This document shows, piece after piece, positions 1 to 20,682 of a stretch of DNA of 34,268 nucleotides. The position numbers and the translations under genes were made by a program. The stretch spans positions 1 to 34,268 of the forward strand of contig NZ_JAATVU010000063.1 of NCBI RefSeq assembly GCF_013184745.1. Reading direction: 5' to 3'. Within the stretch, counting starts at the first letter, position 1; each line of letters opens with the position of its first letter. The notes under the pieces are model-generated. The model did not search any database. It worked only from the letters and a program-made list of their open reading frames with translations, and was not told where the DNA came from. The DNA comes from Mangrovicoccus sp. HB161399. GTDB taxonomy: Bacteria; Pseudomonadota; Alphaproteobacteria; Rhodobacterales; Rhodobacteraceae.

Positions 1-187
1 CATCGCGGGATCGAACCGGACGGCCAGCGATCCGCGCTGCCTCAGCGCCCCGCTCGCCGTCGCGCTCGGACCGGTGGCGCGTCACCGCTCGCTAGCAGTG
101 CCAGTTGGCGGTCTTGTACGCCGTCTTCGGAGGTCCGCTCAGGGCCGCCAGCTATCATGCTGGATTCGCGCCGTGAATCCCCCCGGA

Positions 188-662
188 TTTGCGCAACAAG
201 GCCGCCTTCCGGCCACCGCGGTGACCGTCATCGCCACGGGCGAGGGCGACGCCCGGATGGGCCTGACCACGTCTGCCATCTGCTCGCTCTCCGACGCGCC
301 GCCGATGATACCGGCCTGCATCAACCGCCGCAGCCCCGTGCCGGAGCCGATCCGCGCCAATGGCTGCTTTTCCGCCAATTTCCTGACCTAGGCCCAGATC
401 GCCGTCGCCTCGCTTTGCCGGGATGGCCAAGCTCTACGGGGCGGAACGCTTCGCCGGGGGCGCCTGGACCCGGCTCGCGGCCAGCGCGCCGGTTCTGGAG
501 GACGCGCTGTCGGCCTTCGACTTGCGTACCGACTGCGAGCGCGACTCGCCGACCCATGCGATCCTGATCGGCCGCATGGCCGCCCTCCGGCAGGACGGAA
601 GCGCGCGCGGCCTCGTCTACACCTCGGGGACCTTCAGCTTCCCGCCCGACCTCTCCGCGTGA
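188..662 (+). pseudogene. Decayed flavin reductase (DIM6/NTAB family)
   Basis: This is the remnant of a short-chain flavin reductase, the family that supplies reduced FMN/FAD to two-component monooxygenases. The first reading frame carries the family core: TVIATGEG, then GLTTSAICSLSD, then PACINRRS, then ANGCFSANFL. It is closed by a TAG at 389-391. The C-terminal half continues in another frame from about 423, with the typical ERFAGGAW segment, an APVLEDALSAFDLR stretch and a closing VYTSGTFSF segment, and stops at 662. The N-terminus lacks a convincing start. The premature stop plus frameshift make a working protein unlikely. It lies downstream of an FMO-like gene and a luciferase-like monooxygenase and may have been their reductase partner; that link is inference. 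Confidence 0.72.
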
Positions 663-1483: not shown

Positions 1484-2944
1484 TCAGCCGGGCCGGTCCA
1501 GCATTGCCCGGATGTCCGCGGGAAGCTCGAACGCCTCCCTGTCATGGGCTTCCAGCATGGGGATAAGCCGGTCCTCCTGCTCGGCGAAGAGCGCACGGGT
1601 CAGGCCATCCGCCACCCGCGGCACGCCGAAGCGGTGCGACGAGATCGACACCGCCGACATGCCGCCCATCGACAGGCTGGCCAGCGCGTTGAAAGCCACG
1701 ATCCGCCCGATGCCCGGCGCGGCTCCAGGCACGCGTTCGGTGAAGCGGTAGTCGCGGTCGAGATAGGGAAACAGCAGCCGCCCCGGTGCCGGATCGTCGG
1801 CGGGCGGCTGGAAGCGGTCGCGCCAGAGCGCCGCGCCGCGCGCGATCCGGGCCAGTTCGGGGCGCCGGGACATGTCGACCAGAGTGCCCGTGGCGGCAAT
1901 GGCGTGATCCGCCTCGAACCGGCCGCGGGGCGTCCCGATGACGATCCGCCCGCCGTCCATCCCGACCGTCTCCCAGGGCGCGCCCGGCAGGATCCGGAAA
2001 TTGGGGAAGCTGCAGGCGCGGAAGAAATGATGCTCCGCCGGAGACTGGCTGAGCCCGCTCATGAATCGCGCGAGGTTCCACTTGGTCAGGTCCGACAGCT
2101 CGTGCGAATGGTTAAGGTGGCCGCCGGTCTCGAATTCGCGGGCGACGTCCTTCATCGGCAGATCCCGGCGGCGCATGAACATTTCGACCTGCCGCGCCCC
2201 GGCATCGAGGGCCGTCACCGCCATGTCGAAGGCCGCTGCCCCCGCGCCGAGGATGGCGATGTCGCGACCGGCGAACTGTGCGGCATCCACCCCGTCCGAG
2301 GAATGGCTGTAGCGCTCCGGAGGGAGCCCCGCGGCAATCACCTCCGGCACGGCCCAGGCGCCGCCGCCATCCATGCCCGTGGCCAGCACCGCATGGCGGG
2401 CGCGGATCGTGCCGCCTCCGGCCAGCGACAGGCTCACCCCGGCCGCGTCGAAATCGATGTCGGCCACCTCCGCGCCGTTGCGGACCGGCAGGTCCGCGAT
2501 GCTGCGGTACCAGCGCAGATAGGCCATCCAGTCGGTCCGCGGCACGCGCTTCAGCGCGTCCCAGGCGGCGCGGCCGTGGCAGGCGGTGAAGAAGCTCTGG
2601 ATGGTCAGCGACGGGATATTCAGATCGGCGCCCATGACCTCCTTGGGCGAGCGGATCTCGTAGTTGCGGGCGAAGCTGTCCCAGACGCCTTCGCGGCCTT
2701 CCGGCGCGCGGTCGAGAAGCAGGATGTTGTCCACGCCGCGGCGCTTCAGCTCGTGGCCGAGCACCAGCCCGGACTGTCCCGCGCCGACGATGGCCACGTC
2801 CGGAATCCGCCGCCCCGCGTGCTCGGCCGGAATGACCCAGGGCTTGGTGGCGAAGCTCAGCATGGCAAGGTCTTCGCGGGCCCGGCGGGTCAGCGCGTCG
2901 AGCGCGGACTCGGCCTGGCCGGGCGCGGGCACGGCAATGTTCAC
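1484..2944 (-). CDS. FMO-like FAD/NAD(P)-binding monooxygenase
   Basis: Encodes a 486-residue flavoprotein of the flavin-containing monooxygenase / Baeyer-Villiger type, expected to use FAD and NAD(P)H to oxygenate a small molecule in the cytoplasm. An N-terminal FAD-binding Rossmann motif VAIVGAGQSG lies at about residues 50-59. A second dinucleotide motif, IAILGAGAAAF, is near residue 230, and an ATG(T) flavin-domain signature (AIAATGTLVDM) follows further on. The GTG start at 2944 is chosen because AAGGAGA lies 6 bases upstream; frames extending further have no ribosome site. The gene follows the LysR gene on the same strand after 86 bases, and an operator-like palindrome (3040-3058) lies 96 bases before its start. 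Substrate and exact reaction (N- or S-oxygenation, or Baeyer-Villiger insertion) cannot be read from the sequence. Confidence 0.85.
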   Translation of the reverse strand: MNIAVPAPGQAESALDALTRRAREDLAMLSFATKPWVIPAEHAGRRIPDVAIVGAGQSGLVLGHELKRRGVDNILLLDRAPEGREGVWDSFARNYEIRSPKEVMGADLNIPSLTIQSFFTACHGRAAWDALKRVPRTDWMAYLRWYRSIADLPVRNGAEVADIDFDAAGVSLSLAGGGTIRARHAVLATGMDGGGAWAVPEVIAAGLPPERYSHSSDGVDAAQFAGRDIAILGAGAAAFDMAVTALDAGARQVEMFMRRRDLPMKDVAREFETGGHLNHSHELSDLTKWNLARFMSGLSQSPAEHHFFRACSFPNFRILPGAPWETVGMDGGRIVIGTPRGRFEADHAIAATGTLVDMSRRPELARIARGAALWRDRFQPPADDPAPGRLLFPYLDRDYRFTERVPGAAPGIGRIVAFNALASLSMGGMSAVSISSHRFGVPRVADGLTRALFAEQEDRLIPMLEAHDREAFELPADIRAMLDRPG

Positions 2945-3030
2945 GGGCAGTCTCCTTGGCGGGGGCTGCGGGATGGCGGCGCCCCCGCGATCTTGCCGCG
3001 CGCGGGCGCCCGCCGCCAAACGCCGAATCC

Positions 3031-4035
3031 TCAGGGAAGCGTTGCCGCAGCCGCAACGCCCGTTTCCGCCGGAACGGCGTCCGGCACCGCGGCCCGGCTG
3101 CGGACCAGCTGTCCGACCTCCGCCCGGAAGCCCGGAAGCGCCTCCTTCAGGCGCTCGAGCAGCATGGCGCCCGCACCCGGCAGCGTGCGCATCGGCTGGA
3201 CGTAGACGGTCAGCGAGGGCGGCGGCGCCAGCCGGTCCTCGATCGGCACGAAGGCCAAGGTGCCCGCGGCGATCTCCGCCATGACGCCGACGGGCGTGCG
3301 CACGCCGACGCCCAGTCCCGCCCGCACGAGATTGGTGACGAAATCAGGCGCGTTGGTGTCGAAGGCGCGCGTGCGCGGGTCGCTGGCCTCCAGATAGTCG
3401 CGCCAGCCGGTGCCGCCCCCCGTTCCCTTGCGGGTATTGACCAGCGGCTCGCCGATCAGGTCCGTCAGCTTCAGCGCGCCGCGACGCGCCAGGTGCGAGC
3501 CGGGCGGACAGATCACGCCGAGCGGGATCTCGGAAATGGCGGCGATGGTCAGGTCCCCGCGCACCGGCGGCGACATGGCGATGCCGATATCGACCGCTTC
3601 CGCGGCCACCATCTCCATGATGTCCTTCGCCCCGGCGATCTCGACGCTGAAGGTCACGCCCGGATAGGCGGCGTGGTAGGCGGCAAGCACCGGCGGCAGG
3701 AAATCGCGGCCCAGCCCGTCCTCGCAGGCCAGCCGGACATGGCCGCGGCGCAGCCCCCGCAGGTCGTCGATATGGCCGATGGCGCGCTCCAGATCCTGGT
3801 CGAGCTTCATCGCATAGCCGTAGAGCACCTCGCCCGCCGCGGTCAGCCGGACCCCCTCGGCGCGCCGCTCGAATAGCTTGGCCTGCAGCTGGTCCTCCAG
3901 CTTGATGATCTGGCGGTTGACGGCCGAGGCCGCCACGCTGAGCCGCTCGGCTGCCTGCCGCATCGACCCCGCACGGGCGGTTTCGGCGAAATAGCGCAGG
4001 GCGGCAAGATGGACATGGACAAAGGATCGGGACAC
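3031..4035 (-). CDS. LysR-family transcriptional regulator
   Basis: A 334-residue LysR-type regulator. The N-terminal winged helix-turn-helix spans roughly residues 10-68 (ALRYFAETARAGSMRQAAERL, then AASAVNRQIIKLE, then LFERRAEGVRLTAAG). A periplasmic-binding-protein-like effector domain follows (DFLPPVLAAYHAAYPGVTF, then GLGVGVRTPVGVM). The GTG start at 4035 is supported by AGGAG placed 6 bases upstream. It sits between the luciferase-like monooxygenase (110 bases upstream) and the FMO-like gene (86 bases downstream), all on one strand. Palindromes with a T-N11-A core lie 85 bases upstream of its own start, before the FMO-like gene, and twice in the 8739-9134 divergent region. It is therefore the probable autoregulated activator of the whole 1.5-14 kb cluster, with a pathway compound as co-inducer. 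Family call is firm; target set is inference. Confidence 0.92.
   Translation of the reverse strand: MSRSFVHVHLAALRYFAETARAGSMRQAAERLSVAASAVNRQIIKLEDQLQAKLFERRAEGVRLTAAGEVLYGYAMKLDQDLERAIGHIDDLRGLRRGHVRLACEDGLGRDFLPPVLAAYHAAYPGVTFSVEIAGAKDIMEMVAAEAVDIGIAMSPPVRGDLTIAAISEIPLGVICPPGSHLARRGALKLTDLIGEPLVNTRKGTGGGTGWRDYLEASDPRTRAFDTNAPDFVTNLVRAGLGVGVRTPVGVMAEIAAGTLAFVPIEDRLAPPPSLTVYVQPMRTLPGAGAMLLERLKEALPGFRAEVGQLVRSRAAVPDAVPAETGVAAAATLP
3040..3058. promoter_or_regulatory. LysR-type operator palindrome, copy 1
   Basis: CGTTGCCG-CAG-CCGCAACG matches the consensus CGTTGCCGNNNCGGCAACG with one mismatch and contains T-N11-A (T3043 to A3055). It overlaps the last codons of the LysR gene and sits 96 bases upstream of the FMO-like start. 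Its function is inferred from recurrence at three other places in the cluster. Confidence 0.55.
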
Positions 4036-4119
4036 CGGGGAACTCCTGGCTGCAACGCGTTACCCCTCCAGCCTGCCGCAAGTTCCCCCGCTTTGCCGGT
4101 CCGCGCTGTCCCCGGCAGC

Positions 4120-4138
4120 CGCTGCCGGAGCGGCAACG
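4120..4138. promoter_or_regulatory. LysR-type operator palindrome, copy 2
   Basis: CGCTGCCG-GAG-CGGCAACG differs from the shared palindrome by one base and keeps the T-N11-A core (T4123 to A4135). It lies in the short gap between the luciferase-like monooxygenase stop and the LysR start, 85 bases upstream of the latter, a suitable place for autoregulation. The same bases also form an overlapping CCGGCAG-CCG-CTGCCGG hairpin (4112-4128), which could act as a terminator for the preceding gene, although no T-run follows. Confidence 0.55.
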
Positions 4139-4145
4139 CCCAAGG

Positions 4146-5150
4146 TCAGGTCGTTGCCGGTTCCGTTGCGGGAAATTTGAGCCGGGGGCGAACTTCGGAC
4201 GCCAGCAGCCGGAGGGTCCGTTCGGCATGGCCGAGGGAGACATGCGGAATCTGGACCATCGCGTCGAGCTGGTCGATTCCCGTCTCGGCGATATAGGCGT
4301 TGAGCTTTCCGGCAACCGTCTCGGGAGAGCCGGCGATCACGTTGACCATGTCCAGCTGCTCGGCCCGGTTGCGCGGCACCTCGGGGAATATGCCCTTCGC
4401 GATCGCCTCGCGGGTATAGGCCCCCTTCGACATCATCGAGAAGTAGAGATCGGCGGCGGCCGCGCTGTCGGCCAGCGCTTCGGCATCGGTCGGGGCGACG
4501 AAGACCAGCCGCACGCCTCGGCACAGGCCCCTGCCCCCGCTCCGGCGGTAGCGGCGGACATACCCGGCCTGCACCGATCCGGTCTCGGCCTGGCCGACGA
4601 CCAGGTTGATGCCGCGCGCCGCCAGCATGGCGATCGTGCCTTCGTCGCGCCCTGCCGCCCAGAGCCGCGGCACCAGATCGACCCCTGGCGCGGGCGAAAG
4701 CGGCGTTTCGGTCAGGCCTGCGAATTCGGCGAGAAGCCCGTCGAGAAGCTCGGCGAAGCGGGCGATCTTGGCGGCACGGTCGGGGATCGCGTTCTGCGCG
4801 CCCGAGCCCAGCCCGATGCCGAAATCGACCCGCCCGCCAGAGACCAGCGACAGCATCGCCATTTCCTCGGCGGCGCGCTGCGGGCTGACATGCGACAGCA
4901 CCTTGACCCCGGTCCCCAGCCGCACGCGGCGGGTCAGCCCCGCGGCCTTGGCCAGCAGGATCTCGGGCACCGGGAAACGGCCGTAGAAGGCGGCCGCGTC
5001 GTCGCGGCGGTGATGCTCGCCCAGCCAGCAGCTGTCGAAGCCCATTTCGTCCGCCAGCCGGATCAGCGCCAGCGAGTGCTCGGCCATCTCGGCATCGGTG
5101 GTGCCGGGCGCGGCCCAGCCCTGGTCCATCAGGCCAAATCTCGGTGTCAT
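4146..5150 (-). CDS. Luciferase-like flavin monooxygenase (LLM class)
   Basis: Encodes 334 residues of the bacterial luciferase-like TIM-barrel family, which use reduced FMN from a separate reductase to oxygenate substrates (alkanesulfonates, nitrilotriacetate, pyrimidines, ketones). Family features include FGLMDQGW at the N-terminus, the DEMGFDSCWLGEHH segment at about residues 34-47, RVRLGTGVKVLSHVSPQRAAEE, and GRVDFGIGLGSG. The ATG at 5150 has GGAAAGGA upstream. It is the last gene of the ABC importer operon (23 bases after the permease), so its substrate is probably what the importer brings in. A reductase is needed; the only candidate in the window, the flavin reductase remnant near 188-662, is broken, so one encoded elsewhere must serve. 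Resembles the SsuD and RutA logic, but the substrate is not determinable. Confidence 0.88.
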   Translation of the reverse strand: MTPRFGLMDQGWAAPGTTDAEMAEHSLALIRLADEMGFDSCWLGEHHRRDDAAAFYGRFPVPEILLAKAAGLTRRVRLGTGVKVLSHVSPQRAAEEMAMLSLVSGGRVDFGIGLGSGAQNAIPDRAAKIARFAELLDGLLAEFAGLTETPLSPAPGVDLVPRLWAAGRDEGTIAMLAARGINLVVGQAETGSVQAGYVRRYRRSGGRGLCRGVRLVFVAPTDAEALADSAAAADLYFSMMSKGAYTREAIAKGIFPEVPRNRAEQLDMVNVIAGSPETVAGKLNAYIAETGIDQLDAMVQIPHVSLGHAERTLRLLASEVRPRLKFPATEPATT

Positions 5151-5173
5151 TGCGCGGTCCTTTCCGGCAGGGA

Positions 5174-5989
5174 TCAGCGGGTCTTCCAGGGCATGGCCAG
5201 GCGCTCGGCCAGCGTCACCAGCCCGTAGACGGCCAGGCTCGCCGCCGTGGCGGCAAGCGCCGTCGCCCAGACCTCGGCGGTCTGGTAGCGCGCGCCGTAG
5301 ACGACGATCAGGTGGCCGAGCCCGCGCTCGGCGGCGAGCCATTCGGCGACGATGGAGGAGACGATGCAGGCGCAGGCCGACAGCTTGAGCGCGTTGAAGA
5401 GGAACGGCACCGATGCCGGCAGCCGCACCAGCCAGAGCGTCTGGCGCGCATCGGCCGACAGCGTGTGCATCAGTTCCTTGACCTCCGCATCGGCGCTGCG
5501 CAGCCCGCGCAGGGCGTTCACCAGCATCGGGAAGAAGGTGAGGAAGGCGGTGATGACGATCTTCGGCGCCATGCCGTTGCCGAGCCACAGGATCAGCACC
5601 GGCAGGACCGCGACGACCGGCACGGCCTCGGCGCCGATGGCAACCGGATAGACCGCGCGCCGGATCGGTGCGGAATGGACGAAGATGATGGCGACGAGCA
5701 GCCCCAGCGCGTTGCCGATGGCGAAGCCCGCCATAGCCTGGCCGAGCGTCACCCCCATATGCGCCAGGATCTCGGCGCCCGAGCGGCCGAAGGCCTCGGC
5801 GATGGCCAGCGGCGAGGCCAGGATCAGCGGCGAGACGCGCCCGGAAGCAGTGATCCATTGCCAGAGGCCGAGCGCCACGAACAGCACCGCCAGCGGCAGC
5901 GCGATGCGGCGGAGGCGGTGCCAGGGGATCGGCGGCAATGCCGCCGCATCGCGGGCCATGGCGGGAAGGATGTCGGGCTGGGCGGTCAA
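5174..5989 (-). CDS. ABC importer permease, SsuC/TauC type
   Basis: Membrane subunit (about 271 residues) of an aliphatic sulfonate/taurine/pyrimidine-type ABC importer. It begins its first helix at IALPLAVLFVALGLWQWI. It has the family coupling-loop pattern around AKELMHTLSADARQ-like residues (EVKELMHTLSADARQTLWLVRLPASVPFLFNALKLS) that docks on the ATPase, and then several hydrophobic helices. The start is uncertain. The TTG at 5989, preceded by GAGGA at a suitable distance, is preferred; the ATG at 5959 is the alternative with a weaker ribosome site. It lies 20 bases after the other permease and 23 bases before the luciferase-like monooxygenase. Two different permeases in one operon imply a heterodimeric channel. 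Confidence 0.85.
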   Translation of the reverse strand: MTAQPDILPAMARDAAALPPIPWHRLRRIALPLAVLFVALGLWQWITASGRVSPLILASPLAIAEAFGRSGAEILAHMGVTLGQAMAGFAIGNALGLLVAIIFVHSAPIRRAVYPVAIGAEAVPVVAVLPVLILWLGNGMAPKIVITAFLTFFPMLVNALRGLRSADAEVKELMHTLSADARQTLWLVRLPASVPFLFNALKLSACACIVSSIVAEWLAAERGLGHLIVVYGARYQTAEVWATALAATAASLAVYGLVTLAERLAMPWKTR

Positions 5990-6009
5990 GGGCACGTCCT
6001 CGGGCAGGG

Positions 6010-6807
6010 TCAAAGGTCGGGCGCGGCGGCGGTGTAGCGGTGCAGCAGGTGCTCGGCGAGATGCACGAGTCCCAGAAGCGACAGGGTCAGCCCGGCGGAG
6101 GTGAAAATCGCCGCCCAAAGCTGGGGAAGCTGGAAATACTGGCCCGAGACCACGACGAGATAGCCCAGCCCGGTATTCGCCCCGATCCATTCGGTCACCA
6201 GCGCGGCGATGAAGGCCGAGGAGGCCGAGACCTTCAGCGCGGCAAAGAGATAGGGCATGGCCGCCGGGAACTCGACCATGCAGAGCCGCTGCCAGCGCGA
6301 GGCATGCAGGCTGTGCATCAGCTCCAGATGGTCGTCCGAGGGCGAGGCCAGCCCGCGCATCATGTTGAGGAAGGTCGGGAAATAGACCGAGAAGGAGACG
6401 ATGGCGATGATCGGCGGCAGGCCGCGCCCGAGCATCACCACCACCAGCGGCGTGAAGACGACGATGGGAATCGCCCGGCTGACCAGCGCATAGGGATAGA
6501 GCGCCTCGCGCAGCACCGTGACCGAGGAGAGCAGCATCGCCATCGCGACGGCGACGATGTTGCCGATGGCGAAGCCCGACAGCGCCTCCAGCGTGGTCGC
6601 CCCGGCATGGCGCAGCAGCACTTCGGAATTGCCGGTGAACTGCGCCGCGACCAGTCCGGGCGCCGGCAGGATGAAGGACGGGATCCAGCCCTGCGCCGCG
6701 CCGGCCGACCAGAGCGCGACCAGTCCGGCGATCAGCAGGACCGGCGGCAGGACGGCGCCGAGGACGCCGGGAACGGCGGATGGCAGGCGCGGGAGGGGCT
6801 GGATCAT
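6010..6807 (-). CDS. ABC importer permease, SsuC/TauC type (second subunit)
   Basis: A 265-residue inner-membrane permease of the BPD_transp_1 family. About six hydrophobic helices are visible, for example PPVLLIAGLVALWSAGA and LVSRAIPIVVFTPLVVVMLG. The cytoplasmic coupling loop (HLELMHSLHASRWQRL, then FPAAMPYLFAALKVS) is expected to contact the ATPase. The ATG at 6807 is preceded by CGGAG. It follows the binding-protein gene by 52 bases and precedes the second permease by 20 bases. The two permeases share the family pattern but differ clearly in sequence, so this is not a recent duplication. Confidence 0.88.
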   Translation of the reverse strand: MIQPLPRLPSAVPGVLGAVLPPVLLIAGLVALWSAGAAQGWIPSFILPAPGLVAAQFTGNSEVLLRHAGATTLEALSGFAIGNIVAVAMAMLLSSVTVLREALYPYALVSRAIPIVVFTPLVVVMLGRGLPPIIAIVSFSVYFPTFLNMMRGLASPSDDHLELMHSLHASRWQRLCMVEFPAAMPYLFAALKVSASSAFIAALVTEWIGANTGLGYLVVVSGQYFQLPQLWAAIFTSAGLTLSLLGLVHLAEHLLHRYTAAAPDL

Positions 6808-6859
6808 GGCAGGCTCCGGTCGGCAGGGGCTCCGGCGCCGGAAGCGCCGGAGGCGGGCA

Positions 6860-7876
6860 TCAGTGCTTCGGCAGGACGGCCATCTCGAGGATCTCGGTGG
6901 TGGTGAAGCTCGCCGGGTCGATCACCGAGGCCGCGGCACCGGCCTCGAAGGCGTTCTGCGCCGTCTCGGCCCAGACATCGGGCTCCAGCCACAGGATGCC
7001 GTGCTCGGCGGTCATGTCCGACTTCATGTAATCGGCCTGGTGGACGGCCTGGTAGGTCTGCTGCTCGAGGTTGAGCCCGTCATTGAACTTGTGGTCGACG
7101 ATGTATTTCGCCGCCGCTTCGGGATCGGCGAAATAGATGTCCCAGGCCTTGGCCTCCGCCGACATGTAGGCTGCGAGGGTTTCCTTGTTCGCCGGGTCGG
7201 ACAGGTACTCGTCGGTGACGATCCAGGAACCGGATTGCGAGTTCATCCCGAAATCGCCCAGCGGCAGGACGTTGACCTCCACCCCGGCCTGCTCGATCAG
7301 CCGCGGCTCGTTGAAGGCGAAGGTGGTGATCATGCAGTCGATGCGCCCGGCGATCAGCAGGGAGATGTCGCTGTTGCCGATAGAGGTGGTGTCGACCTGG
7401 TCGAGCGTGACGCCGTTCTTGCCGAGAAAGGTCTCGGCATAGACCTGGGCGGACTGCTTGACCCCCAGCCGCTTGCCGACAAGCTGGTCCGGCGCGGTGA
7501 TGCCGCTGTCCTTGCGGCAGGTCATGGCCACCGGCGAGGTCTGGAACTGCCCGGCGATGACCTTCAGCGGCGCGCCCTTGTCGACCGCGGCGACCACGCT
7601 GTCGGCGCCGGTCATCGCCAGCTGCGCGACATTGGCCGAGACCATCTGCACCCCGTCGACCCCGTTGCCCCCGGGGATCAGCGTGACATCGAGGCCGGCC
7701 TCCTCGAACAGGCCCTCCTCCTTGGCATAGAGCGCGCCGAAATTCTCGACATTGGGGATGTAGCTCAGCACGACGGTGATCGGCGTCAGATCCTGGGCCG
7801 GGGCCATGGAGGCGGCGGAGATGGCCAGGGCGGCAAGGCTGGCGCGGCGGGCCGCGGCGATCGGGGAGAAGGGCAA
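6860..7876 (-). CDS. ABC importer substrate-binding protein (NMT1/THI5-like)
   Basis: A periplasmic binding protein of about 338 residues from the NMT1/THI5/SsuA superfamily, whose known ligands include hydroxymethylpyrimidine, formylaminopyrimidine, taurine and sulfonates. A signal peptide precedes QDLTPITVVLSYIPN (RRASLAALAISAASMAPAQ). The mature part shows the family features: FGALYAKEEGLFEEAGLDV, LAMTGADSVVAAVDKGAPLKVI and the KRLGVKQSAQVYAETFL segment. The TTG at 7876, with GGAG upstream, is chosen as the start because it gives a compact signal peptide; an earlier in-frame start would overlap the ATPase gene. It lies second in the importer operon. Superfamily membership does not fix the ligand, but suits a heteroaromatic or acidic small molecule. 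Confidence 0.86.
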   Translation of the reverse strand: MPFSPIAAARRASLAALAISAASMAPAQDLTPITVVLSYIPNVENFGALYAKEEGLFEEAGLDVTLIPGGNGVDGVQMVSANVAQLAMTGADSVVAAVDKGAPLKVIAGQFQTSPVAMTCRKDSGITAPDQLVGKRLGVKQSAQVYAETFLGKNGVTLDQVDTTSIGNSDISLLIAGRIDCMITTFAFNEPRLIEQAGVEVNVLPLGDFGMNSQSGSWIVTDEYLSDPANKETLAAYMSAEAKAWDIYFADPEAAAKYIVDHKFNDGLNLEQQTYQAVHQADYMKSDMTAEHGILWLEPDVWAETAQNAFEAGAAASVIDPASFTTTEILEMAVLPKH

Positions 7877-7931
7877 GGTCGGGGTCTCCGGTCTGGTCGG
7901 GCTCGGCCCGGGTTGGCAAGGCGGGGGAGGT

Positions 7932-8738
7932 TCAGCCGTGCAGCGCATGGCGCAGCTCGGCCTCGTAGGCGGCAAAGCGCGGATCGTCGCGCAGGGACCG
8001 GTCGCGGTCGCGGCCGAAGCCGATCGGCACGCGCTTCGTGATGCGGCCGGGACGGGCGCTCATCACCGCGACCTCGTCGGACAGGATGATCGCCTCGGAA
8101 ATCGAATGGGTGACCAAGAGGAGCGTCGCGCCGGTTTCCTGCAGGATGCGCAGCAGCTCGAAATTCAGCTTCTCGCGGGTAATCTCGTCGAGCGCGCCGA
8201 AGGGTTCGTCCATCAGCAGGAAGCGCGGCCTCAGCGTCAGCGCCCGCGCGATCGCCGCGCGCTGGCGCATGCCGCCCGACAGTTCCGCCGGATAGGCCCG
8301 CTCGAACCCCTTGAGCCCGACCAGCTCGATCATCTCCTCCGCGGTCCGGCGGCGTTCGCGCGGCGAGACCCGGGCGACCTGCAGGCCGAGCTCGACATTC
8401 TCCAGGATGCGGCGCCAGGGCAGCATGGTCGATTGCTGGGAGACCAGAGCGAAGACCCGGTTGGCGCGCGCATCCGCAGGCGTCGTGCCGTGCAGCGTCG
8501 CCCTGCCCGAGGTCGGATGCACCAGATCGGCGAAGATGCGCAGCAAGGTGGACTTGCCGCAGCCCGACGGCCCGATCAGCGAGGCCCAGGAGCCGCGCGG
8601 CACCTCCAGCGAGCAGCCGGTCAGCGCCTCGGTCACCTCGCGTCCGCGGCGGTAGACCATGCCGACGTCGCGGGCAACGAGCCCTCCGGCCGCCGTCTCC
8701 GCTGTCATCCCGTCCGGGTCCGGCAGGCTGCCATCCAT
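7932..8738 (-). CDS. ABC importer ATPase, SsuB/TauB type
   Basis: The 268-residue ATP-hydrolysing subunit of the importer. Walker A GPSGCGKST lies at residues 56-64, the Q-loop is in LVSQQSTMLPWRRILENV, the signature LSGGMRQR is at 153-160, Walker B FLLMDEPFGALD begins at 173, and the H-loop is in LLLVTHSISEA. Order, length and the MLPWR motif match nitrate/sulfonate/taurine/pyrimidine importers. The ATG at 8738 follows GGAAAGGA. It is the first gene of the leftward operon (ATPase, binding protein, two permeases, monooxygenase) and is read from the divergent region that holds two perfect copies of the shared palindrome. The nearer copy is 154 bases upstream of the start. Confidence 0.93.
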   Translation of the reverse strand: MDGSLPDPDGMTAETAAGGLVARDVGMVYRRGREVTEALTGCSLEVPRGSWASLIGPSGCGKSTLLRIFADLVHPTSGRATLHGTTPADARANRVFALVSQQSTMLPWRRILENVELGLQVARVSPRERRRTAEEMIELVGLKGFERAYPAELSGGMRQRAAIARALTLRPRFLLMDEPFGALDEITREKLNFELLRILQETGATLLLVTHSISEAIILSDEVAVMSARPGRITKRVPIGFGRDRDRSLRDDPRFAAYEAELRHALHG

Positions 8739-8891
8739 GCGTGTCCTTTCCGGGGCTGCACCCCAACCGGCAGTCCTGTGCCGGTCCCTCGACCTCCCTG
8801 ACGTCGGGCGGGGCTCCGGTCCGCTCCGCCTTCCGGTTCCGAAGGTGGCACCGGCCGCGCGAGTTTGGGAAGACGCATATCCCGGACGATG

Positions 8892-8910
8892 CGTTGCCGC
8901 TTCGGCAACG
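8892..8910. promoter_or_regulatory. LysR-type operator palindrome, copy 3 (perfect)
   Basis: CGTTGCCG-CTT-CGGCAACG is a perfect inverted repeat with 8-base arms and a T-N11-A core. It lies 154 bases upstream of the ABC ATPase start and 75 bases (about seven helical turns) from the next copy. Confidence 0.7.
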
Positions 8911-8966
8911 GGTGTCGGCAGGCGCCGCCGAGCAAGCGCCGCAATGGTTGAATTTTTTGCCGATTG

Positions 8967-8985
8967 CGTTGCCGAACCGGCAACG
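8967..8985. promoter_or_regulatory. LysR-type operator palindrome, copy 4 (perfect)
   Basis: CGTTGCCG-AAC-CGGCAACG has the same arms as copy 3 with a different spacer, which argues for selection on the arms. It sits 150 bases upstream of the questin-oxidase-like gene, next to an AT-rich patch. Confidence 0.7.
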
Positions 8986-9134
8986 TTTAAAAATTCTTCT
9001 GAAATAACTGTATCTTACCGGCATCTTTCGGAAAACCGCCTTTGCCCCGCGGCGCAGTGGCGCGACTGTACAAGCCGTGCGGCCTTCCTATCATCGCCGT
9101 GCCGGCAGCCGCCGGGCAGAGTGAAGGAGTTCCG

Positions 9135-10181
9135 ATGGACAGGCCCGCACCGCAGCAGGACGTCGACGGCATCATGGCCGCGATGCCCGCGTACAGCACA
9201 GAATTCGCCGAGACCTTCGCCAACCATGCCCCCATGGTTCTCGTCGCGCTCGACAGGATCGGCGGCGGCGCGGACCGGCTGCACGATTTCTTCCGCAGCT
9301 ACGAGGCCTACAAGGTCCTTCTGCCGGTGCAGCCCGGGACCGCCCCCCTGACCGCCGCCGACCTTCCCGCCCTTCTGGGCGCGCGGGAGCGCGAGGACGA
9401 CCTGCGCCGCTATTTCGCCGCGGAGGTGGACAGGCTGGGCTGGCGGGAGGCGCTCGCCGTGCACCTGCCGGGCCTTGCCTCGGGCGTCGGCGCCAGCGCG
9501 CTGCACGCGCTCATGCGGACCGCCTACGGCATCCTGCGCGAAGACCCGCAGGAAATCGCGATCGCGCTGGCCTATTGGCACTGGTCCCACCTGGCGCTGC
9601 CGCCCGCAACCGGCGCCGCGCCGGTGACGGCCGACCCCGCGGAGGTCCTGGCGCGCGCGGGCCGGATCGACGCGCTGCGCGCGCTGCCCCTGCATGGCCT
9701 GCTGTGGCAGAACATGGCCGAAAGCGGGCGCTGCGCAGGGTTCGCGCCGGTCGTCGACTGGCTGGAGATCGGGCCGGACACGCTGGACCGCATGGCTGCG
9801 GCCTCGATCGCGCTCTTCGCCGCGACCCAGGACTTTTCGGCCCTCCACGCGGTGACGGGGTGCCACTGGCTGCGGATCGTGCTTCCCTGCTGCAGCGCGG
9901 ACACGCAGGAGACGATGCTGCGCAGCTTCTGGCAGTGCATCGCCGCGCTCTCGGGCGAGATGGGCTTTCCCGCCCTGCCCTCCGCCGCCCGGCTGGAGCG
10001 CTGGCGCATGGCCGAAGCGCCGGACTGGCCCGCGATCTTCGCGGCCGCGCGGCTGTCGGATGACGAGCACGACATCTCCGTCGCCTTCTCCGCCTCCGAA
10101 GAGGACAGGATCCGCCCCGACCCGCTCTACCGGGTCTCGGTCGCGCGGCGGCTGGGCCTGATCCGGGACTACCGGACATGA
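9135..10181 (+). CDS. Questin-oxidase-like protein (DUF4243 family)
   Basis: Encodes 348 residues resembling the questin oxidase-like family, whose fungal members cleave anthraquinone rings by Baeyer-Villiger-type oxidation and whose bacterial members are largely uncharacterised. The characteristic N-terminal pattern is present (FANHAPMVLVALDRIGG at about residues 30-46, followed by the RLHDFFRSYEAYK helix). So are His-rich helical segments further on, including AYWHWSHLAL and HAVTGCHWLRIVLP. No signal peptide or membrane segment is seen. The ATG at 9135 has AAGGAG six bases upstream; extensions to earlier starts lack this. The stop overlaps the next start (ATGA), so it is the first gene of the amidohydrolase operon. 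A role as a ring-cleaving oxygenase feeding the hydrolases is inference; the family call rests on recalled motifs. Confidence 0.7.
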   Translation: MDRPAPQQDVDGIMAAMPAYSTEFAETFANHAPMVLVALDRIGGGADRLHDFFRSYEAYKVLLPVQPGTAPLTAADLPALLGAREREDDLRRYFAAEVDRLGWREALAVHLPGLASGVGASALHALMRTAYGILREDPQEIAIALAYWHWSHLALPPATGAAPVTADPAEVLARAGRIDALRALPLHGLLWQNMAESGRCAGFAPVVDWLEIGPDTLDRMAAASIALFAATQDFSALHAVTGCHWLRIVLPCCSADTQETMLRSFWQCIAALSGEMGFPALPSAARLERWRMAEAPDWPAIFAAARLSDDEHDISVAFSASEEDRIRPDPLYRVSVARRLGLIRDYRT

Positions 10182-11734
10182 CGCATCCTTCCGATTTCCT
10201 GATCGAGGCGGGCGTGGTGCTCTGCGGGCTGGACGGCGCGGGACGGATGCAGCTGCGCCATGACGCGATGATCCGGGTGCACGAGGGCCGGATCGCCCAT
10301 ATCGGCGCGCCGGAGGCCGTGGCCTTCGGCAATGGCCATCTTCCGCGCTTCGGAGGCCCCGGGATGATCGCCATGCCGGGCCTGGTGAATGCGCATCACC
10401 ATTTCGGGATCACCCCGCTGATGGGCGGCGTTCCCTTCGCGCCGCTGGAACTGTGGCTGCCGCGCTTCCGCCTGATCCGCCAGATCGGGCCGCGGCTCGA
10501 CACGCTCTATTCCGCCATCGAGATGCTGGAAAGCGGCACGACCACCGTGCATCACATCCATTCCGGGCTTGCGGGCTCGCCGGAGGACTGGAAGGCCGGG
10601 GCCGATGCGGTGCTGGGCGCCTATGGCGAGACCGGGATGCGCGCGGGCTTCTCCTTCATGATCCGCGACCGCAACGTGCTGAGCTACGACCCCGACGAGG
10701 ACGTGCTCGCCGCGCTTCCCGCCGAGATGGCGGAATGGTGGCGGCCGCGGCTCTCGGCGGCGGCGACGCCGATCGGCGACTACATGGACTTCTTCCGTCG
10801 GATGCAGGCGGACTGGGCGGCGAAGGCCCCCGGCATGGTGCGGATGCACCTGGCGCCGGCGAACCTGCACTGGTGCTCGGATGGCGCGCTGCAGGAGATC
10901 GTTTCGACGGCACGCGCGGCGGGCGCCAACCTCCACATGCACCTGGTCGAGACCGAGCGCCAGGCCGCCTTCGCGCAGCGCACCTTCGGCTGTTCGGCGG
11001 TGGAGCACCTCCACCGGCTGGGCTGCCTCGGTCCGGAGCTGACGCTGGGCCACGGCAACTGGACCAGCCGCGGCGATCTCGACCTCCTGGCCGACTGCGG
11101 CTGCATGATCTGCCACAATGCCTCTTCCGGGCTGCGGCTGGGATCGGGCATCGCGCCGGTCAACGAGATGCGCCGCAGGGGAATTCCGGTGGCGCTCGGC
11201 ATCGACCAGTCGAACATCGCCGACGACCGCGACATGCTGCTGGAGATGAAGCTGGCCTGGGCGCTGCACCGCGAGACCGGGCTGTGGAACGACCGTCCCG
11301 ATGCGGCCGCCGTGATTGCCATGGCGACGGAGCATGGCGCGCGCTCCGCCGGGTTCGGCACCGAGGTCGGCCGGCTGGAGCCGGGGCGGCGCGCCGACAT
11401 CCTGCTGCTCGACCGCGCCAGGGTGGAACGCCCCTTCGTCTCGCCGCACACGCCGGTGGCCGAGACGGTGCTGCACCGCGCGGCACGGGACGCCGTGGAC
11501 AGCGTCTTCGTCGAGGGACGCCGGGTGGTCGAGGGCGGCCGCGTGACGTCGATCGACCGCGGCGCGGTGCTGGCCGAGATCGGCGACCGGCTCGCCGCGC
11601 CGGAAACGGCCGGCGAGACCGAGGCGCGGAGGATGGTGGAGGCGACCATGCCGGTGCTGGCCGGGTTCCAGAGGCGCAGCTCCCCGCACGAGGCGCACCG
11701 CCCCTACCGCTACAACGCGATGGACCATGGCTGA
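10178..11734 (+). CDS. Metal-dependent amidohydrolase, AtzB/TrzA-deaminase-like
   Basis: Encodes 518 residues of the COG0402 amidohydrolase superfamily (S-adenosylhomocysteine, 8-oxoguanine and hydroxydechloroatrazine-type deaminases). The metal-site motifs are all visible: NAHHHFG after MIAMPGLV, LHMHLVETERQ, LTLGHGNW, and GIDQSN in the place of the last Asp ligand. The start of the composite beta-sandwich and its return near the C-terminus (GRLEPGRRADILLLD) are present. An extra C-terminal tail of some 80 residues follows the usual end. It overlaps its upstream neighbour by ATGA and the downstream one by 8 bases, so expression is coupled. The HHHF variant of the HxH motif and the substrate pocket resemble AtzB-like enzymes that remove amino groups from heteroaromatic rings. 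The actual substrate is unknown. Confidence 0.85.
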   Translation: MTHPSDFLIEAGVVLCGLDGAGRMQLRHDAMIRVHEGRIAHIGAPEAVAFGNGHLPRFGGPGMIAMPGLVNAHHHFGITPLMGGVPFAPLELWLPRFRLIRQIGPRLDTLYSAIEMLESGTTTVHHIHSGLAGSPEDWKAGADAVLGAYGETGMRAGFSFMIRDRNVLSYDPDEDVLAALPAEMAEWWRPRLSAAATPIGDYMDFFRRMQADWAAKAPGMVRMHLAPANLHWCSDGALQEIVSTARAAGANLHMHLVETERQAAFAQRTFGCSAVEHLHRLGCLGPELTLGHGNWTSRGDLDLLADCGCMICHNASSGLRLGSGIAPVNEMRRRGIPVALGIDQSNIADDRDMLLEMKLAWALHRETGLWNDRPDAAAVIAMATEHGARSAGFGTEVGRLEPGRRADILLLDRARVERPFVSPHTPVAETVLHRAARDAVDSVFVEGRRVVEGGRVTSIDRGAVLAEIGDRLAAPETAGETEARRMVEATMPVLAGFQRRSSPHEAHRPYRYNAMDHG

Positions 11735-12902
11735 GCGGCTGGTCCTCTCCGGCGCCGTCCTGCCCGACGGCACGGCGGCCGACATCGTGATCGCGGACGG
11801 GCGGATCGCGCAGCTCGCCGCGCCCGGCACCGCGGCGGGCCCGGCCGAGGACTGCACCGGCATGGCCGCGCTGCCGGGCCTCGCCGACGCGCACATCCAT
11901 CTCGACAAGACGCTCTGGGGCCTGCCCTTCGAGGCGCATGCACGCGGCGGCACCGTCGCGGAGCGCATCGCCTTCGAACGCAGCCGCCGCCCCTCCCTGC
12001 CGCCGGTCTTCGGCCGCGGCCTGGCGCTGGCACGGCACGTCGCCGCGCTCGGCACCACGCAGGTCCGCAGCCATGTCGACATCGACACGCAATCCGGCCT
12101 GTCCGGGCTCTTTGACCTGCTGCGGCTGCGCGAGGCGGTGCGGGACCTCGTCGACATCCAGATCGTCGCCTTCCCGCAGAGCGGCATCCTGCGCGACCCC
12201 GGCACGGCGGAGCTGCTGGATGCCGCGCTCCGCGAGGGCGCGGACCTGGTGGGCGGGCTCGATCCCTCGGCGATCGACGGCGATGCCGCCGGGCATCTGG
12301 ACATCGTCTTCGGACTGGCGGAACGCCATGGCAAGGGCATCGACATCCACCTGCACGAGCCTGGCGCCGCGGGACTTGGCGCGCTTGCCGACATCGCCCG
12401 GCGCACCGGGGCTGCCGCGATGCAGGGCCGGGTCGCCGTCAGCCACGCCTTCGCGCTGGGGCATCCGGCGGCCGGGCCGGCGGTCGACGCGCTGGCACGG
12501 GCGGGCGTGGCCATCGTCACCAACGGCCCGCCCCGCGCCGTCGCCATGCCCCCGGTCGCGGCGCTGCAGGCCGCGGGCGTCCTGGTGGCCGCCGGTTCGG
12601 ACAACATCCGCGATCTCTGGAGCCCGCACGGCAATGGCGACATGCTGCAGCGTGCCGGGATGATCGCCTACATGCAGGGTCTCTGCGCGCCGGAGGAGCT
12701 GGAGCTCGCGCTCGCGCTCGCGACCTCGCACGGCGCGGCGCTGTGCGGATCGGACGGCGGCAGGATCGCGCCGGGCGGAGCGGCCGACATGGTGCTGGTT
12801 GCGGCAGGTTCGGCGGCCGAGGCGTTGGTCTCCGCCCCGCCGCGCCGCATGGTGATCAAGCGCGGGCGGATCATCGCGCGCGACGGCAAGCTGGAGAGCT
12901 GA
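11727..12902 (+). CDS. AtzC/cytosine-deaminase-like amidohydrolase
   Basis: A 391-residue cytoplasmic amidohydrolase. The motif set closely follows the N-isopropylammelide amidohydrolase (AtzC)/cytosine deaminase branch: DAHIHLDK, then RSHVDIDTQSGL, DIQIVAFPQSG, DLVGGLDPSA, GIDIHLHEPG, VSHAFALG and the final ASP-bearing segment GSDNIRDLWSPHGNGDM. The length is close to the roughly 400 residues of AtzC. It begins at ATG 11727 inside the end of the previous gene and stops one base before the next start, a tightly coupled arrangement. It is expected to hydrolyse an exocyclic C-N bond or an amide of a heterocycle or ring-opened product. It need not act on triazines: many members of this branch have no known substrate. 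Confidence 0.85.
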   Translation: MAERLVLSGAVLPDGTAADIVIADGRIAQLAAPGTAAGPAEDCTGMAALPGLADAHIHLDKTLWGLPFEAHARGGTVAERIAFERSRRPSLPPVFGRGLALARHVAALGTTQVRSHVDIDTQSGLSGLFDLLRLREAVRDLVDIQIVAFPQSGILRDPGTAELLDAALREGADLVGGLDPSAIDGDAAGHLDIVFGLAERHGKGIDIHLHEPGAAGLGALADIARRTGAAAMQGRVAVSHAFALGHPAAGPAVDALARAGVAIVTNGPPRAVAMPPVAALQAAGVLVAAGSDNIRDLWSPHGNGDMLQRAGMIAYMQGLCAPEELELALALATSHGAALCGSDGGRIAPGGAADMVLVAAGSAAEALVSAPPRRMVIKRGRIIARDGKLES

Positions 12903-12903
12903 C

Positions 12904-14178
12904 ATGTTCGACCTCATCCTGCGCAACGCGGCGCCCGACGGGTTCGGCGGCCTGCGCGATCTGGGCCTGAAGGACGGGCGCATTGCCGCCATCGCCCCCA
13001 GGCTCGAGGCGGAGGCGCCGGAGGAAGACCTGCAGGGGCTGTTCCTCTCGCCCGGCCTATGCGATGCGCATGTCCATCTCGACAAGGCCTGCATCCTCGG
13101 CCGCTGCCAGGTCTGCGAGGGAACGCTGGAAGAGGCCGTCCGCCTGACGGCCGCCGCCAAGACGGGCTTCGACGAGGAGGACGTGTACCGGCGCGGCGCG
13201 CGCGTGCTGGAGAAGGCAATCTCGCACGGCACGCAGCGGATGCGCAGCTTCGTCGAGGTCGATCCGCGCGCGGGCATGCGCAGCTTTGCCGCCGTCATGC
13301 GGCTCAAGGCGGATTATGCCTGGGCGCTCGACCTGCAGGTCTGCGCCTTCGCGCAGGAGGGCCTGACGCAGGAGATGGCGACCCTTGGGCTGCTGGAAGA
13401 GGCCTGCCGCGAGGGGGCCGACATGGTCGGCGGCTGCCCCTATACCGATCCCGACCCGGCGCGCCATGTCGCGCTGATCTTCGATCTCGCGGAGCGGCAC
13501 GGGATGCGGGCCGATTTCCACCTGGATTTCGATCTCGATCCCGGCAGGACCAACCTGCCGCATGTGCTGCGCGAGACGAAGGCGCGGGGCCTGCAGGGGC
13601 AGGTCTCCATCGGCCATGTGACGCAGATCTCCGCCATGGCGCCCGCGCAGGCGGAGGCGGTGGCGGAGGCGCTGGCGGAGGCCGGCGTCGCGCTCACCGT
13701 GCTGCCGGCGACCGACCTTTTCCTGACCGGCCGCGATTCCGACCGGCTGGTGCCGCGCGGGATCGCCCCGGCGCACCGGATGGCGGGGGTGGCGGCTTCG
13801 CTGGCGACGAACAACGTTCTGAACCCGTTCACGCCCTTCGGCGATGCATCGCTGGTCAGGATGGCCAATCTCTATGCCACCGTCGCCCAGGCGGCGAGCG
13901 CGGCGGAATGCCTGCGCATCTGGCGGATGATTGCCGCGGATGCCGCGGCCGCGATGGGTGCGCGGGCGGAGATCGCCGTCGGTGCGCCGGCCGACCTGGT
14001 GCTTTTCGACGCGCCGGACGCAGAGGCGGCTCTGCGCGAAGTGGCACCCGCCCTGGCCGGCTGGAAGGCCGGATGCCCGAGCTTCCGCAGGCCCCGTCCC
14101 GTTCTGATGCCCCCGGACACGGGCTGGGACAGCACAGGACGGGGACCGTCCCGCAGGGGACGCGCTCCAGGGCAATAG
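12904..14178 (+). CDS. Cytosine-deaminase-like amidohydrolase with Asn at the usual Asp ligand
   Basis: Encodes 424 residues, paralogous in design to the preceding gene: DAHVHLDKACILGRC, RSFVEVDPRAGM, LQVCAFAQEGL, MVGGCPYTD, ADFHLDFDLD, SIGHVTQ. Where cytosine deaminase and AtzC carry an Asp (HDD or SDN), this protein has ATNNVLNPFTPFGD. The metal or catalytic acid is therefore an Asn, so activity or metal use may differ. The ATG at 12904 follows GGAG and starts one base after the upstream stop. A short C-terminal extension rich in Gly, Arg and Pro contains a GGACGG-GGA-CCGTCC hairpin (14137-14151) at DNA level, possibly the transcription end of the operon. Substrate unknown. Family assignment is firm, function open. 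Confidence 0.85.
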   Translation: MFDLILRNAAPDGFGGLRDLGLKDGRIAAIAPRLEAEAPEEDLQGLFLSPGLCDAHVHLDKACILGRCQVCEGTLEEAVRLTAAAKTGFDEEDVYRRGARVLEKAISHGTQRMRSFVEVDPRAGMRSFAAVMRLKADYAWALDLQVCAFAQEGLTQEMATLGLLEEACREGADMVGGCPYTDPDPARHVALIFDLAERHGMRADFHLDFDLDPGRTNLPHVLRETKARGLQGQVSIGHVTQISAMAPAQAEAVAEALAEAGVALTVLPATDLFLTGRDSDRLVPRGIAPAHRMAGVAASLATNNVLNPFTPFGDASLVRMANLYATVAQAASAAECLRIWRMIAADAAAAMGARAEIAVGAPADLVLFDAPDAEAALREVAPALAGWKAGCPSFRRPRPVLMPPDTGWDSTGRGPSRRGRAPGQ

Positions 14179-14578
14179 GACACGGCGATTGCCGCCGGTT
14201 CCGTGCTTCGCCGCACGGAGCTCTTTGGTGGGACGGGCAATCTCTCCCATCGGGCGGCCCGGCCCTCGGTCCGGGGGATCACATCCGCGCAGGAGCGGGA
14301 AGCTTGCCCCGGGGCCGGGACCGGCACGGCCAAGATTGACGCGGCCAGCCCGACGGCGCACCGCGCGGCCAGCCGCATGCCGCCGGAAAGGGACAGCCCG
14401 GCCGCACCTTGGGCGGCCTGACCGCGGCATTCCCCGCCGTCGCGGGCCGTAACGGCGGTCCAGGTCCGCGGGGCAGCGACGGAGGAGACCGGACGACTGC
14501 GGTTCCGGCCTGCACCGGTTCCCTCTCCCGCCGCGACGATATGCGTTGCGCCCGGCGCCGGAAAGGCAACACGATCCC
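14179..14578. other. Gene-free stretch before the IS remnant
   Basis: About 400 bases between the last amidohydrolase stop and the left end of the IS remnant. A minus-strand frame near 14378 begins like a secretion signal (MRLAARCAVGLAASILAVPV) but does not continue into a recognisable protein. I see no RNA gene or repeat. Confidence 0.45.
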
Positions 14579-14595
14579 CTGGGGTCAGGATTCAT
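14579..14595 (+). repeat. Left terminal inverted repeat of the IS5-type remnant
   Basis: CTGGGGTCAGGATTCAT pairs with the complement of 15344-15360, matching at 16 of 17 positions. Confidence 0.75.
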
Positions 14596-14645
14596 TGGTT
14601 TGTGCTGTTCCGCATGCTTCGCGCCTCCAGCGACGCAGCGGCGAC

Positions 14646-15342
14646 ATGAACGATTTCTTCCGGCTGATCCGCGCGCTGGTGGCGCGTCTGAACCCGTTCC
14701 GTCCGAAGCCGCACGGAAAGCCCCGGGTCGATGGCAAGAGGGTTCCGAGCGGGATTGCCTTCATCAACCGCAATGGGGTGAGGCGGCGCGATGCCCTGAA
14801 GGCCTTGGCCCGCACAGGTGAAGGAGACCGTGGCACCAGCGGCGACGCGAAAGCCCCGGAAACGGCCTGCAGTCGCTGGAATCTCTGGACCGGGAAAGCC
14901 ATCTTCGCACAGATCACGGCGGGCGCGGCCGCCTCACCGATCGAACCGGAAGCGGCATGGACACCAAGCTCCGTGCCATCTGTGGCCGCCCGGGGCGGCC
15001 GGTTGAGCTGTTCGTCACCGCCGGACAGGCGAGCAATCATGTCGGAGCAAGAGCGCTGATCGCAGCCTGCCCGACGTCAAATGGCTGCCCGGGGATCGCG
15101 GCTAGGATGCCGATTGGTTCCGGGAAGCGCTGCAGAACAAGGGGATGTGCCCCCGTGCATTCCCGGCCGAAGGCAACGCAAGATCCCCGTCAGCCACGGC
15201 AGGCGCTGGTGCAAGCGGCGCAACCGCATCGAGATCTTGTCCGGCAGGCTCAGGGACCGGAGGCGCGCCGCAACCCGCTGCGGTAGAGGTCCCAAGGTCT
15301 TCCTCTCCGCCATCGCTCTCGCGGCAACCGGCATCTTCTGGG
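14646..15342 (+). pseudogene. IS5-family transposase remnant
   Basis: The transposase survives in three frames. The N-terminal part starts at ATG 14646 and shows GKPRVDGKRVPSGIAFINRNG, the family's DNA-binding segment. A second block in another frame has GGRGRL followed by MDTKLRAICGRPGRP, ELFVTAGQASNHVGARALIA. A third has CIPGRRQRKIP, RRWCKRRNRIEILSGRL, and CGRGPKVFLSAIALAATGIFW. The segment that should hold the first catalytic Asp is deleted, and a TAG interrupts the LPGDRG region. It cannot encode a working enzyme. Confidence 0.85.
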
Positions 15343-15343
15343 C

Positions 15344-15360
15344 ATCAATCCTGACCCCAG
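15344..15360 (-). repeat. Right terminal inverted repeat of the IS5-type remnant
   Basis: ATCAATCCTGACCCCAG is the inverted copy of the left end at 14579-14595; it directly follows the transposase C-terminus. Confidence 0.75.
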
Positions 15361-16105
15361 GCCGCCGATGGCACGTTCCGCGACGTTCGATGGCCTGCAT
15401 GCGATCGGGTCGCGCACCACGGCGTCTCCGCCTGCCGGCACGGGACATGACGCGATCATTGCTCCACGATCTCGCGCTGCCCGGGAAGACCGGAGCCGGA
15501 CGGCATGTCTCCGGAGCGTCGGAGAACGGCGCCCAGCCGGCATTCCCGCCCGATGGCCGCCGGCGGGCACAGGGTTGCCCTGACGGGGCGAGACTGAAAG
15601 GGCCAATTCCTTCGCTGTCTACTCCTGACGCGAGACGGAAGCACGCTGCGAAACGGCAAATGCGTATCGTCTCGGCGGAAACAAGCGGCACGTACGGCTC
15701 AGAACCCGGGGGAAGGGCGGAAAGGTCTGCGCGCCGAACCACTGGCGGGTCCGTCGCCGCATCTACCGCTGCCATTGCTGCGGGCATGCTCTCCGACAAC
15801 TCCGGATACTGGCAGGACAACACGCAGGCAATGGAGAGTAGAATGCAGCGCCGCCCAGGTCTCCGGCAGGACGGCGGCGGGCACGCTTCGCGATCCATGC
15901 TCCGCGGCCGCGGAGCCGCTTCGGCCGGAAACATCCGCACCTGGGCCGGCGATGTCCGTCCCCGCCGGCCAGCGGCCGCGACCGCCCTCCCAGATGAGCA
16001 CCCGGGTCCGCGCGCAGCCAGTCCGCTTTCCCGGATACGCTGCCGCAGAAAAATCGGAGGCCGCGCGCCGCCGCAATGCCGCGCAGCCCCGGTCTTCGCC
16101 GCAGC
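15361..16105. other. Gene-free stretch right of the IS remnant
   Basis: About 745 bases between the IS right end and the RTX terminator. Open frames on both strands have GC-driven composition and no recognisable domain. The stretch is probably decayed sequence like the rest of this 8-kb zone. Confidence 0.45.
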
Positions 16106-17759: not shown

Positions 17760-17984
17760 ATCACGTCTCCTCGTTGGCCAATGGACAGCACCACTGCGGC
17801 GCTGATGACCCTTGGTCGGAGGGCCCTGCCGAACGGTTCAAAATAATTTCCGCCTGTCCGCAGCGGTCCGCGGCCCGGGGCAGACCGCCCCTGCCGAGGC
17901 CTGCGGATGGCGTGTCTGTCCGCGCCCGGGCCGGGCTCCTCCGCCAGCATCCCGTCGATCCCCGCCGCCCCGGGGACATGGTCG

Positions 17985-20579: not shown

Positions 20580-20682
20580 CTGGCAGGTCGGACGCTATTG
20601 CGTGCGAAACGCACGGGAACCCGGATATTCAGGACATGCTGGCGGCATTTCCGGACAACGGCAGCGCATGGAACCGGCGGAC

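Follow-up and report, generated by a model that had tools for sequence, protein, structure and literature searches.

The DNA analysed here is a stretch of 34,268 nucleotides from Mangrovicoccus sp. HB161399 (contig NZ_JAATVU010000063.1, positions 1 to 34,268; hereafter the window), in which a cluster of oxygenase, importer and amidohydrolase genes also encodes a LysR-type regulator (3031-4035, minus strand). Four copies of an interrupted palindrome are found in this cluster. As the best explanation of the sequence, we consider it highly likely that these palindromes are LysR-type transcriptional regulator (LTTR) boxes of the encoded LysR, with one box per transcription unit. An initial annotation had already proposed LysR operators at these sites, an interpretation that our analysis supports in silico. 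The palindrome is rare in the genome and is conserved at orthologous places, together with this LysR, in the genus Maritimibacter.

Copies of the palindrome and their rarity

The window and the whole 7.18-Mb genome were scanned with the 19-bp pattern CGTTGCCGNNNCGGCAACG, which has the form 8-3-8. Two copies free of mismatches and two with one mismatch were found where the initial annotation had placed them. The exact copies precede two divergent operons: one at 8892-8910 (minus strand) lies before the operon of the importer and a luciferase-like monooxygenase (LLM), the other at 8967-8985 (plus strand) before the questin oxidase/amidohydrolase operon. The remaining two, each with a single arm mismatch and on the minus strand, lie before lysR (4120-4138) and before the gene of a flavin adenine dinucleotide (FAD)-dependent monooxygenase-like (FMO-like) protein (3040-3058). 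Measured from their centres, the sites lie 105 bases before the start codon of the FMO-like gene, 94 before that of lysR, 163 before that of the importer ATPase and 159 before that of questin oxidase, in agreement with the edge distances of 96, 85, 154 and 150 bases given earlier. The T-N11-A core claimed for these copies is present in all four. Their position upstream of cluster genes was likewise borne out, with the addition that 3040-3058 also lies inside the 3' end of lysR. A fifth match, with three mismatches, was located at 28959; the resulting five window matches at up to three mismatches compare with 0.80 expected, and five were attained by one of 100 shuffles. Two more half-sites, CGTTGCC and CGTTGCG, occur in direct orientation at 4152-4170, about 14 bases beyond the 4120 palindrome, and are possibly a secondary LysR contact.

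Genome-wide, matches were not scattered. Both exact copies of CGTTGCCGNNNCGGCAACG (n=2) belong to the cluster, as do four of the five copies with at most one mismatch, the remaining one being C291:154495. The full palindrome is more distinctive than its inner 15-base core TTGCCGNNNCGGCAA: five exact matches to this core were present in the genome, two in the window and three elsewhere (C258, C266 and C299, the last among glycosyltransferase genes), and the reversed control gave two.

Conservation in Maritimibacter

A scan for the LysR protein by exact peptide patterns, which covers 84,980 species by the tool's description and can miss relatives, returned five loci. Two of them are in Maritimibacter metagenome-assembled genomes (MAGs), with 64% identity in locus L016 and 61% in L017, and the other three are distant (22-23%). 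In both Maritimibacter loci the questin oxidase gene is divergent from lysR, and the FMO gene follows lysR (questin-oxidase <- / lysR -> FMO). At up to three mismatches (2-3 each), CGTTGCCGNNNCGGCAACG was found at 9782, 9927 and 10978 in L016 and at 9786, 9931 and 10977 in L017, that is, before questin oxidase, before lysR and before FMO, respectively, matching the window sites 8967, 4120 and 3040. The comparison of orthologous clusters suggested in the initial annotation has yielded three copies at matching places in each of the two MAGs. Whole-locus expectations were 0.54 (L016) and 0.72 (L017), and in gene-defined gaps the same threshold gave two and one sites per genome against 0.003-0.011 expected from simulated sequence. 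Centre-to-start distances in the window and in Maritimibacter are 105 versus 115-116 bases for FMO, 159 versus about 151-155 for questin oxidase (whose start in L016 is possibly six bases further out) and 94 versus 52-56 for lysR.

The palindrome is thus present at orthologous places with the same regulator, as in a conserved regulon, within this one genus. Comparison of the sites also changed the description of the palindrome: the copies reported initially are real, but only this genome shows the 8-3-8 form, and the conserved form is CGTTGCC-N5-GGCAACG (7-5-7). All four window copies fit this form at no more than one mismatch; the sites carry one, one and no arm mismatches in L016 and one, two and none in L017, and one further arm match in L016 and three more in L017 have three mismatches each. 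Between L016 and L017, identity is 41/42 in the arms, 9/15 in the spacers and 252/438 in the remaining gaps (Fisher 9e-9, arms versus rest). Across the ten sites (four in the window, six in Maritimibacter), the T and A of T-N11-A are always kept, and no arm pair is altered on both sides. Letters are kept while pairing is not, a pattern to be expected if a protein reads the site but not for an RNA stem. Arm letters deviate in one of 70 positions on the promoter-distal side and in six of 70 on the proximal side, a left-right asymmetry that carries little weight given the kinship of the two MAGs.

Additional searches gave no other close relative of the LysR, so that the footprint was not widened beyond three loci. 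Among 295 family genomes (1e-40), the window's own gene and six others at 33-36% identity were found; an alignment-based search of 385 class genomes (1e-75) and 398 phylum genomes (1e-70) gave only the own gene among the matches listed, for which no more than five candidates in each genome had been scored. These three sets overlap and include the own genome. Two of five Maritimibacter genomes contained the LysR, both being the MAGs above, and in 388 plasmid records there was none with at least 60% identity, the highest being about 36% among the matches listed.

Specificity of the conserved form

Exact 7-5-7 arms occur exclusively in the cluster in this genome (2/2) and in the two Maritimibacter genomes (1/1 and 1/1). 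With one mismatch allowed, the cluster accounts for four of eight sites here and for 3/7 and 2/3 in Maritimibacter. Since the reversed control yields 4, 3 and 4 matches in the three genomes, those outside the clusters are at chance level. Exact arms were found in 15 of 394 family genomes, singly in 14 and twice only in this genome; by our own count from the table, this makes 16 matches versus 18 for the reversed control.

The off-cluster sites in this genome (C201, C256, C273 and C291) overlap long reading frames of a mechanical frame listing in the cases of C201, C256 and C291; three frames of C291 tried against Pfam gave no match. The C273 site (C273:27052-27070, positions 3053-3071 of locus L040), carrying CGTTGCCCGAAAGGCAATG, lies between a cation-efflux gene and the gene of an NMT1-like binding protein, the second of this type besides that of the window. 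It is about 260 bases before the start read for this protein; a Rieske oxygenase comes next and, further on, an OHCU decarboxylase. We did not accept it as a fifth operator, as the reversed control gives equal matches (4 and 4). Off-cluster sites in Maritimibacter number five. One sequence, CGTTGCCATCCCGGCAACC, is present in both genomes, overlaps long frames and was taken as coding in the absence of annotation; the other three sites likewise overlap reading frames.

Clusters with related enzymes in Rhizobium

In the 295 family genomes, the questin oxidase search (1e-30) found only the window's own protein. Rhizobium plasmids were used for comparison because none of these genomes offered a cluster having the enzyme but lacking the LysR. 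Three plasmid clusters (L021-L023) share with the window a questin oxidase (56%), amidohydrolase 1 (65-66%) and an FMO (39-40%). Within about 25 kb, none of them contained a LysR similar to that of the window (tblastn 1e-8), and none contained a palindrome copy at up to one mismatch; two-mismatch copies were present once in L021 and once in L022, others having three mismatches. L021 has a LysR of its own which, compared directly with the window LysR, is unrelated beyond background. The palindrome thus follows the window-type LysR and not the enzymes alone.

Proposed operator function and alternatives

Being located before each gene group of the cluster, and before matching genes in two other bacteria, the palindrome very probably serves the LysR as its docking site. 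Features of LTTR boxes are present: an interrupted palindrome with T-N11-A, and a site before the regulator's own gene as well as before the target operons. According to two sources (PMC4834489, PMC8407307), LysR proteins recognise a T-N11-A palindrome often centred near -65, activate in an inducer-dependent manner and are often self-limiting. In the window, we infer the operon limits, binding, activation, autoregulation and an inducer. One site would serve each unit, i.e. FMO, lysR, the divergent importer/LLM operon and the questin oxidase/amidohydrolase operon. A LysR dimer would contact the arms CGTTGCC and GGCAACG across the 5-base spacer, and the tetramer typical of LysR proteins would make additional contacts with weaker DNA closer to the promoter. 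Transcription would be switched on once LysR had bound the substrate or a breakdown product, and LysR would limit its own synthesis. Judging from the amidohydrolase types, the inducer is probably a nitrogen heterocycle.

The centres of the sites precede the start codons of their assigned genes by 52-163 bases. Across 2900-9200, a search for sigma-70-like promoters returned a single match, at 9067-9094 (plus strand), versus 0.4 expected. Several observations weigh against the proposed function. The promoter-like sequence at 9067-9094, itself within chance, would set site 8967 at about -125 and not near -65, and no sigma-70-like match was seen for the other three sites in the scanned interval. 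Site 3040-3058 overlaps the last lysR codons (frame 3031-4035, minus strand), yet it is upstream of FMO. The 7-5-7 form was chosen after the Maritimibacter sites had been seen, and with the 8-3-8 pattern, two and three of 100 shuffles of the 20.9-kb L016 and L017 loci, respectively, equal the three matches. Three of the five exact inner cores TTGCCGNNNCGGCAA are located outside the cluster, and off-cluster sites at up to one mismatch in this genome occur at the reversed-control rate (4 and 4). Moreover, the LysR was found in three loci only, two of them from one genus, and the footprint therefore rests on few independent lineages.

The alternative that survives best, although we consider it improbable, is that a different regulator, encoded elsewhere, recognises the palindromes and controls the same genes; a nitrogen- or purine-responsive repressor would be one candidate. 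The tie between LysR and the sites is one of sequence, and T-N11-A alone is a weak signature. However, sites of such a regulator would be expected elsewhere as well, yet no exact arm match lies outside the cluster in the three genomes, and exact copies in the family are rare, single and at the level of the reversed control. In addition, no regulator other than LysR was found to be common to the window cluster and L016 (the latter also has a DeoR-type regulator), and the three Rhizobium clusters with related enzymes have neither a similar LysR nor a copy at up to one mismatch.

Far less credible is an action of the palindromes as RNA hairpins, i.e. terminators, attenuators or mRNA stabilisers. 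The exact copies can form stems of 8 to 9 pairs, and the fold of 8967 was beaten by only one of 200 shuffles, but the other three window sites are ordinary (17, 26 and 49 of 200 shuffles fold as well), a terminator was called at none of the sites, and arm changes break the pairing, with a compensating double change in 0/10 sites. A terminator or attenuator was rejected on the terminator scan, the arm-pair changes and the folding relative to shuffles. Finally, although the window is G+C-rich and inverted repeats abound in it (perfect 7-5-7 repeats of whatever sequence number 13), an origin by chance or as a mobile repeat element can practically be dismissed, as the same arms stand at matching places in other genomes, no more exact copies exist in the three genomes, and Poisson estimates for the clustering are 5e-12, 2e-10 and 3e-8 in these genomes (values partly post hoc, the motif having been read from these sites).

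Extent of the proposed regulon

The LysR operator remains the preferred explanation, and the genes that stand behind its sites differ from one lineage to the other. The gap between the divergent questin oxidase and lysR genes of Maritimibacter contains two sites, one on each gene side. In the window, the importer/LLM operon is located between the questin oxidase gene and lysR; both genes keep their own site, and an extra site, 8892, precedes the importer operon, with no counterpart seen in the Maritimibacter loci. Queries with LLM, the permeases, the binding protein and amidohydrolase 1 gave no match in L016 and L017 at 1e-8, and ATPase matches reached at most 40% identity. Both loci have a relative of amidohydrolase 2 (60-61%) about 4 kb past FMO, with no site at up to two mismatches. 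Pfam annotation of the Maritimibacter loci comprises ten L016 frames. A single oxygenase/importer/amidohydrolase regulon, as claimed initially, was therefore recovered in part: questin oxidase, lysR and FMO are shared, whereas the importer, LLM and amidohydrolases stand behind sites only in the window among the three loci.

Either a gain in the window lineage or a loss in Maritimibacter would explain the extra importer operon and its site. It is conceivable, albeit tentative, that a three-site questin oxidase/lysR/FMO regulon was extended in this lineage by the importer/LLM operon with an extra operator copy between the divergent sites and by the amidohydrolases behind questin oxidase, each unit joining the same switch; the copy at C273:27052 may add another NMT1 importer, one accompanied by a Rieske oxygenase.

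Genes of the cluster

The LysR protein contains an N-terminal winged helix-turn-helix domain (HTH_1, PF00126) and a substrate-binding domain (LysR_substrate, PF03466), both above the gathering score. In order of transcription, the minus strand encodes the ATPase, the NMT1/THI5-like protein, two permeases and LLM, then lysR, then FMO. The first importer-operon gene (7932-8738) encodes an ATP-binding cassette (ABC) ATPase (Pfam ABC_tran) whose best NCBIfam match, below the cut-off, is a taurine ATPase. It is followed by the NMT1/THI5-like substrate-binding protein (6860-7879; Pfam NMT1), ABC permease 2 (6010-6807; a reading frame assigned as permease by position and BLAST relation only), ABC permease 1 (5174-5992; BPD_transp_1) and, as the last gene, the LLM (4146-5150; Bac_luciferase). 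The FMO-like protein (1484-2944, minus strand; Pyr_redox_3) has 63% identity to its L016 and L017 counterparts from residue 1. On the plus strand, the questin-oxidase-like gene (9135-10181; PF14027, 55% identity to the L016 copy) comes first and three amidohydrolase genes follow, their ends touching or overlapping. These are amidohydrolase 1 (10178-11734; TRZ/ATZ-like), with atrazine chlorohydrolase and 8-oxoguanine deaminase among its solved relatives; amidohydrolase 2 (11727-12902; AtzC/cytosine-deaminase-like), with N-isopropylammelide isopropylaminohydrolase; and amidohydrolase 3 (12904-14178; cytosine-deaminase-like), with cytosine deaminase. The task of the cluster is likely uptake and breakdown of a nitrogen heterocycle.

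Elsewhere in the window, a short frame at 74-391 (plus strand) ends after matching the N-terminal part of a flavin reductase domain (PF01613, 8.7e-10) and resembles what is left of a reductase that could have partnered a flavin monooxygenase. The protein encoded at 16161-17759 (minus strand) carries RTX calcium-binding repeats (PF00353, matched in seven stretches). Long G+C-rich stretches at about 17800-24000 and 14200-16100 are seemingly gene-poor and may be decayed or non-coding DNA; three frames from 17800-24000 tried against Pfam gave no match.

Relation to known systems

Control by LysR proteins is a common type of bacterial gene regulation, and the operator, real and conserved, is of an ordinary type that adds a new regulon to a known regulator family. 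In the literature, we found no prior description of the site letters with a LysR (by title), of a questin oxidase/LysR/amidohydrolase regulon or of a LysR regulon in Maritimibacter, and the papers found on DUF4243 and amidohydrolase clusters were fungal. A specific operator is thereby proposed for an uncharacterised LysR protein, naming the genes it probably controls. Through the regulon, a single inducer would connect the importer and the three amidohydrolases with a questin-oxidase-like protein and a flavin monooxygenase, and a reporter carrying one site would offer a direct route to the substrate of the pathway.

The window LysR has no more than a distant relationship to solved LysR proteins, e.g. 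BenM and a Rubisco operon regulator. AtzR exerts LysR control over cyanuric acid breakdown and, in a likeness by description only, resembles the window regulator as a LysR over genes handling nitrogen heterocycles. With ThnR of tetralin degradation, as presented in PMC4834489, the window shares the control of several promoters by one LysR, among them two closely spaced divergent promoters that each have a site; ThnR differs in its pathway and in requiring a co-activator. Similar in architecture are operators of the CatR/ClcR/TfdR type, for which PMC6449761 gives AkACC-N5-GGTAT as the sites of CatR-type regulators. An odd palindrome with 5-base core arms, a 5-base spacer and T-N11-A, placed before catabolic operons, is common to these operators and the window, whereas the arm letters of the window (TTGCC/GGCAA) differ.

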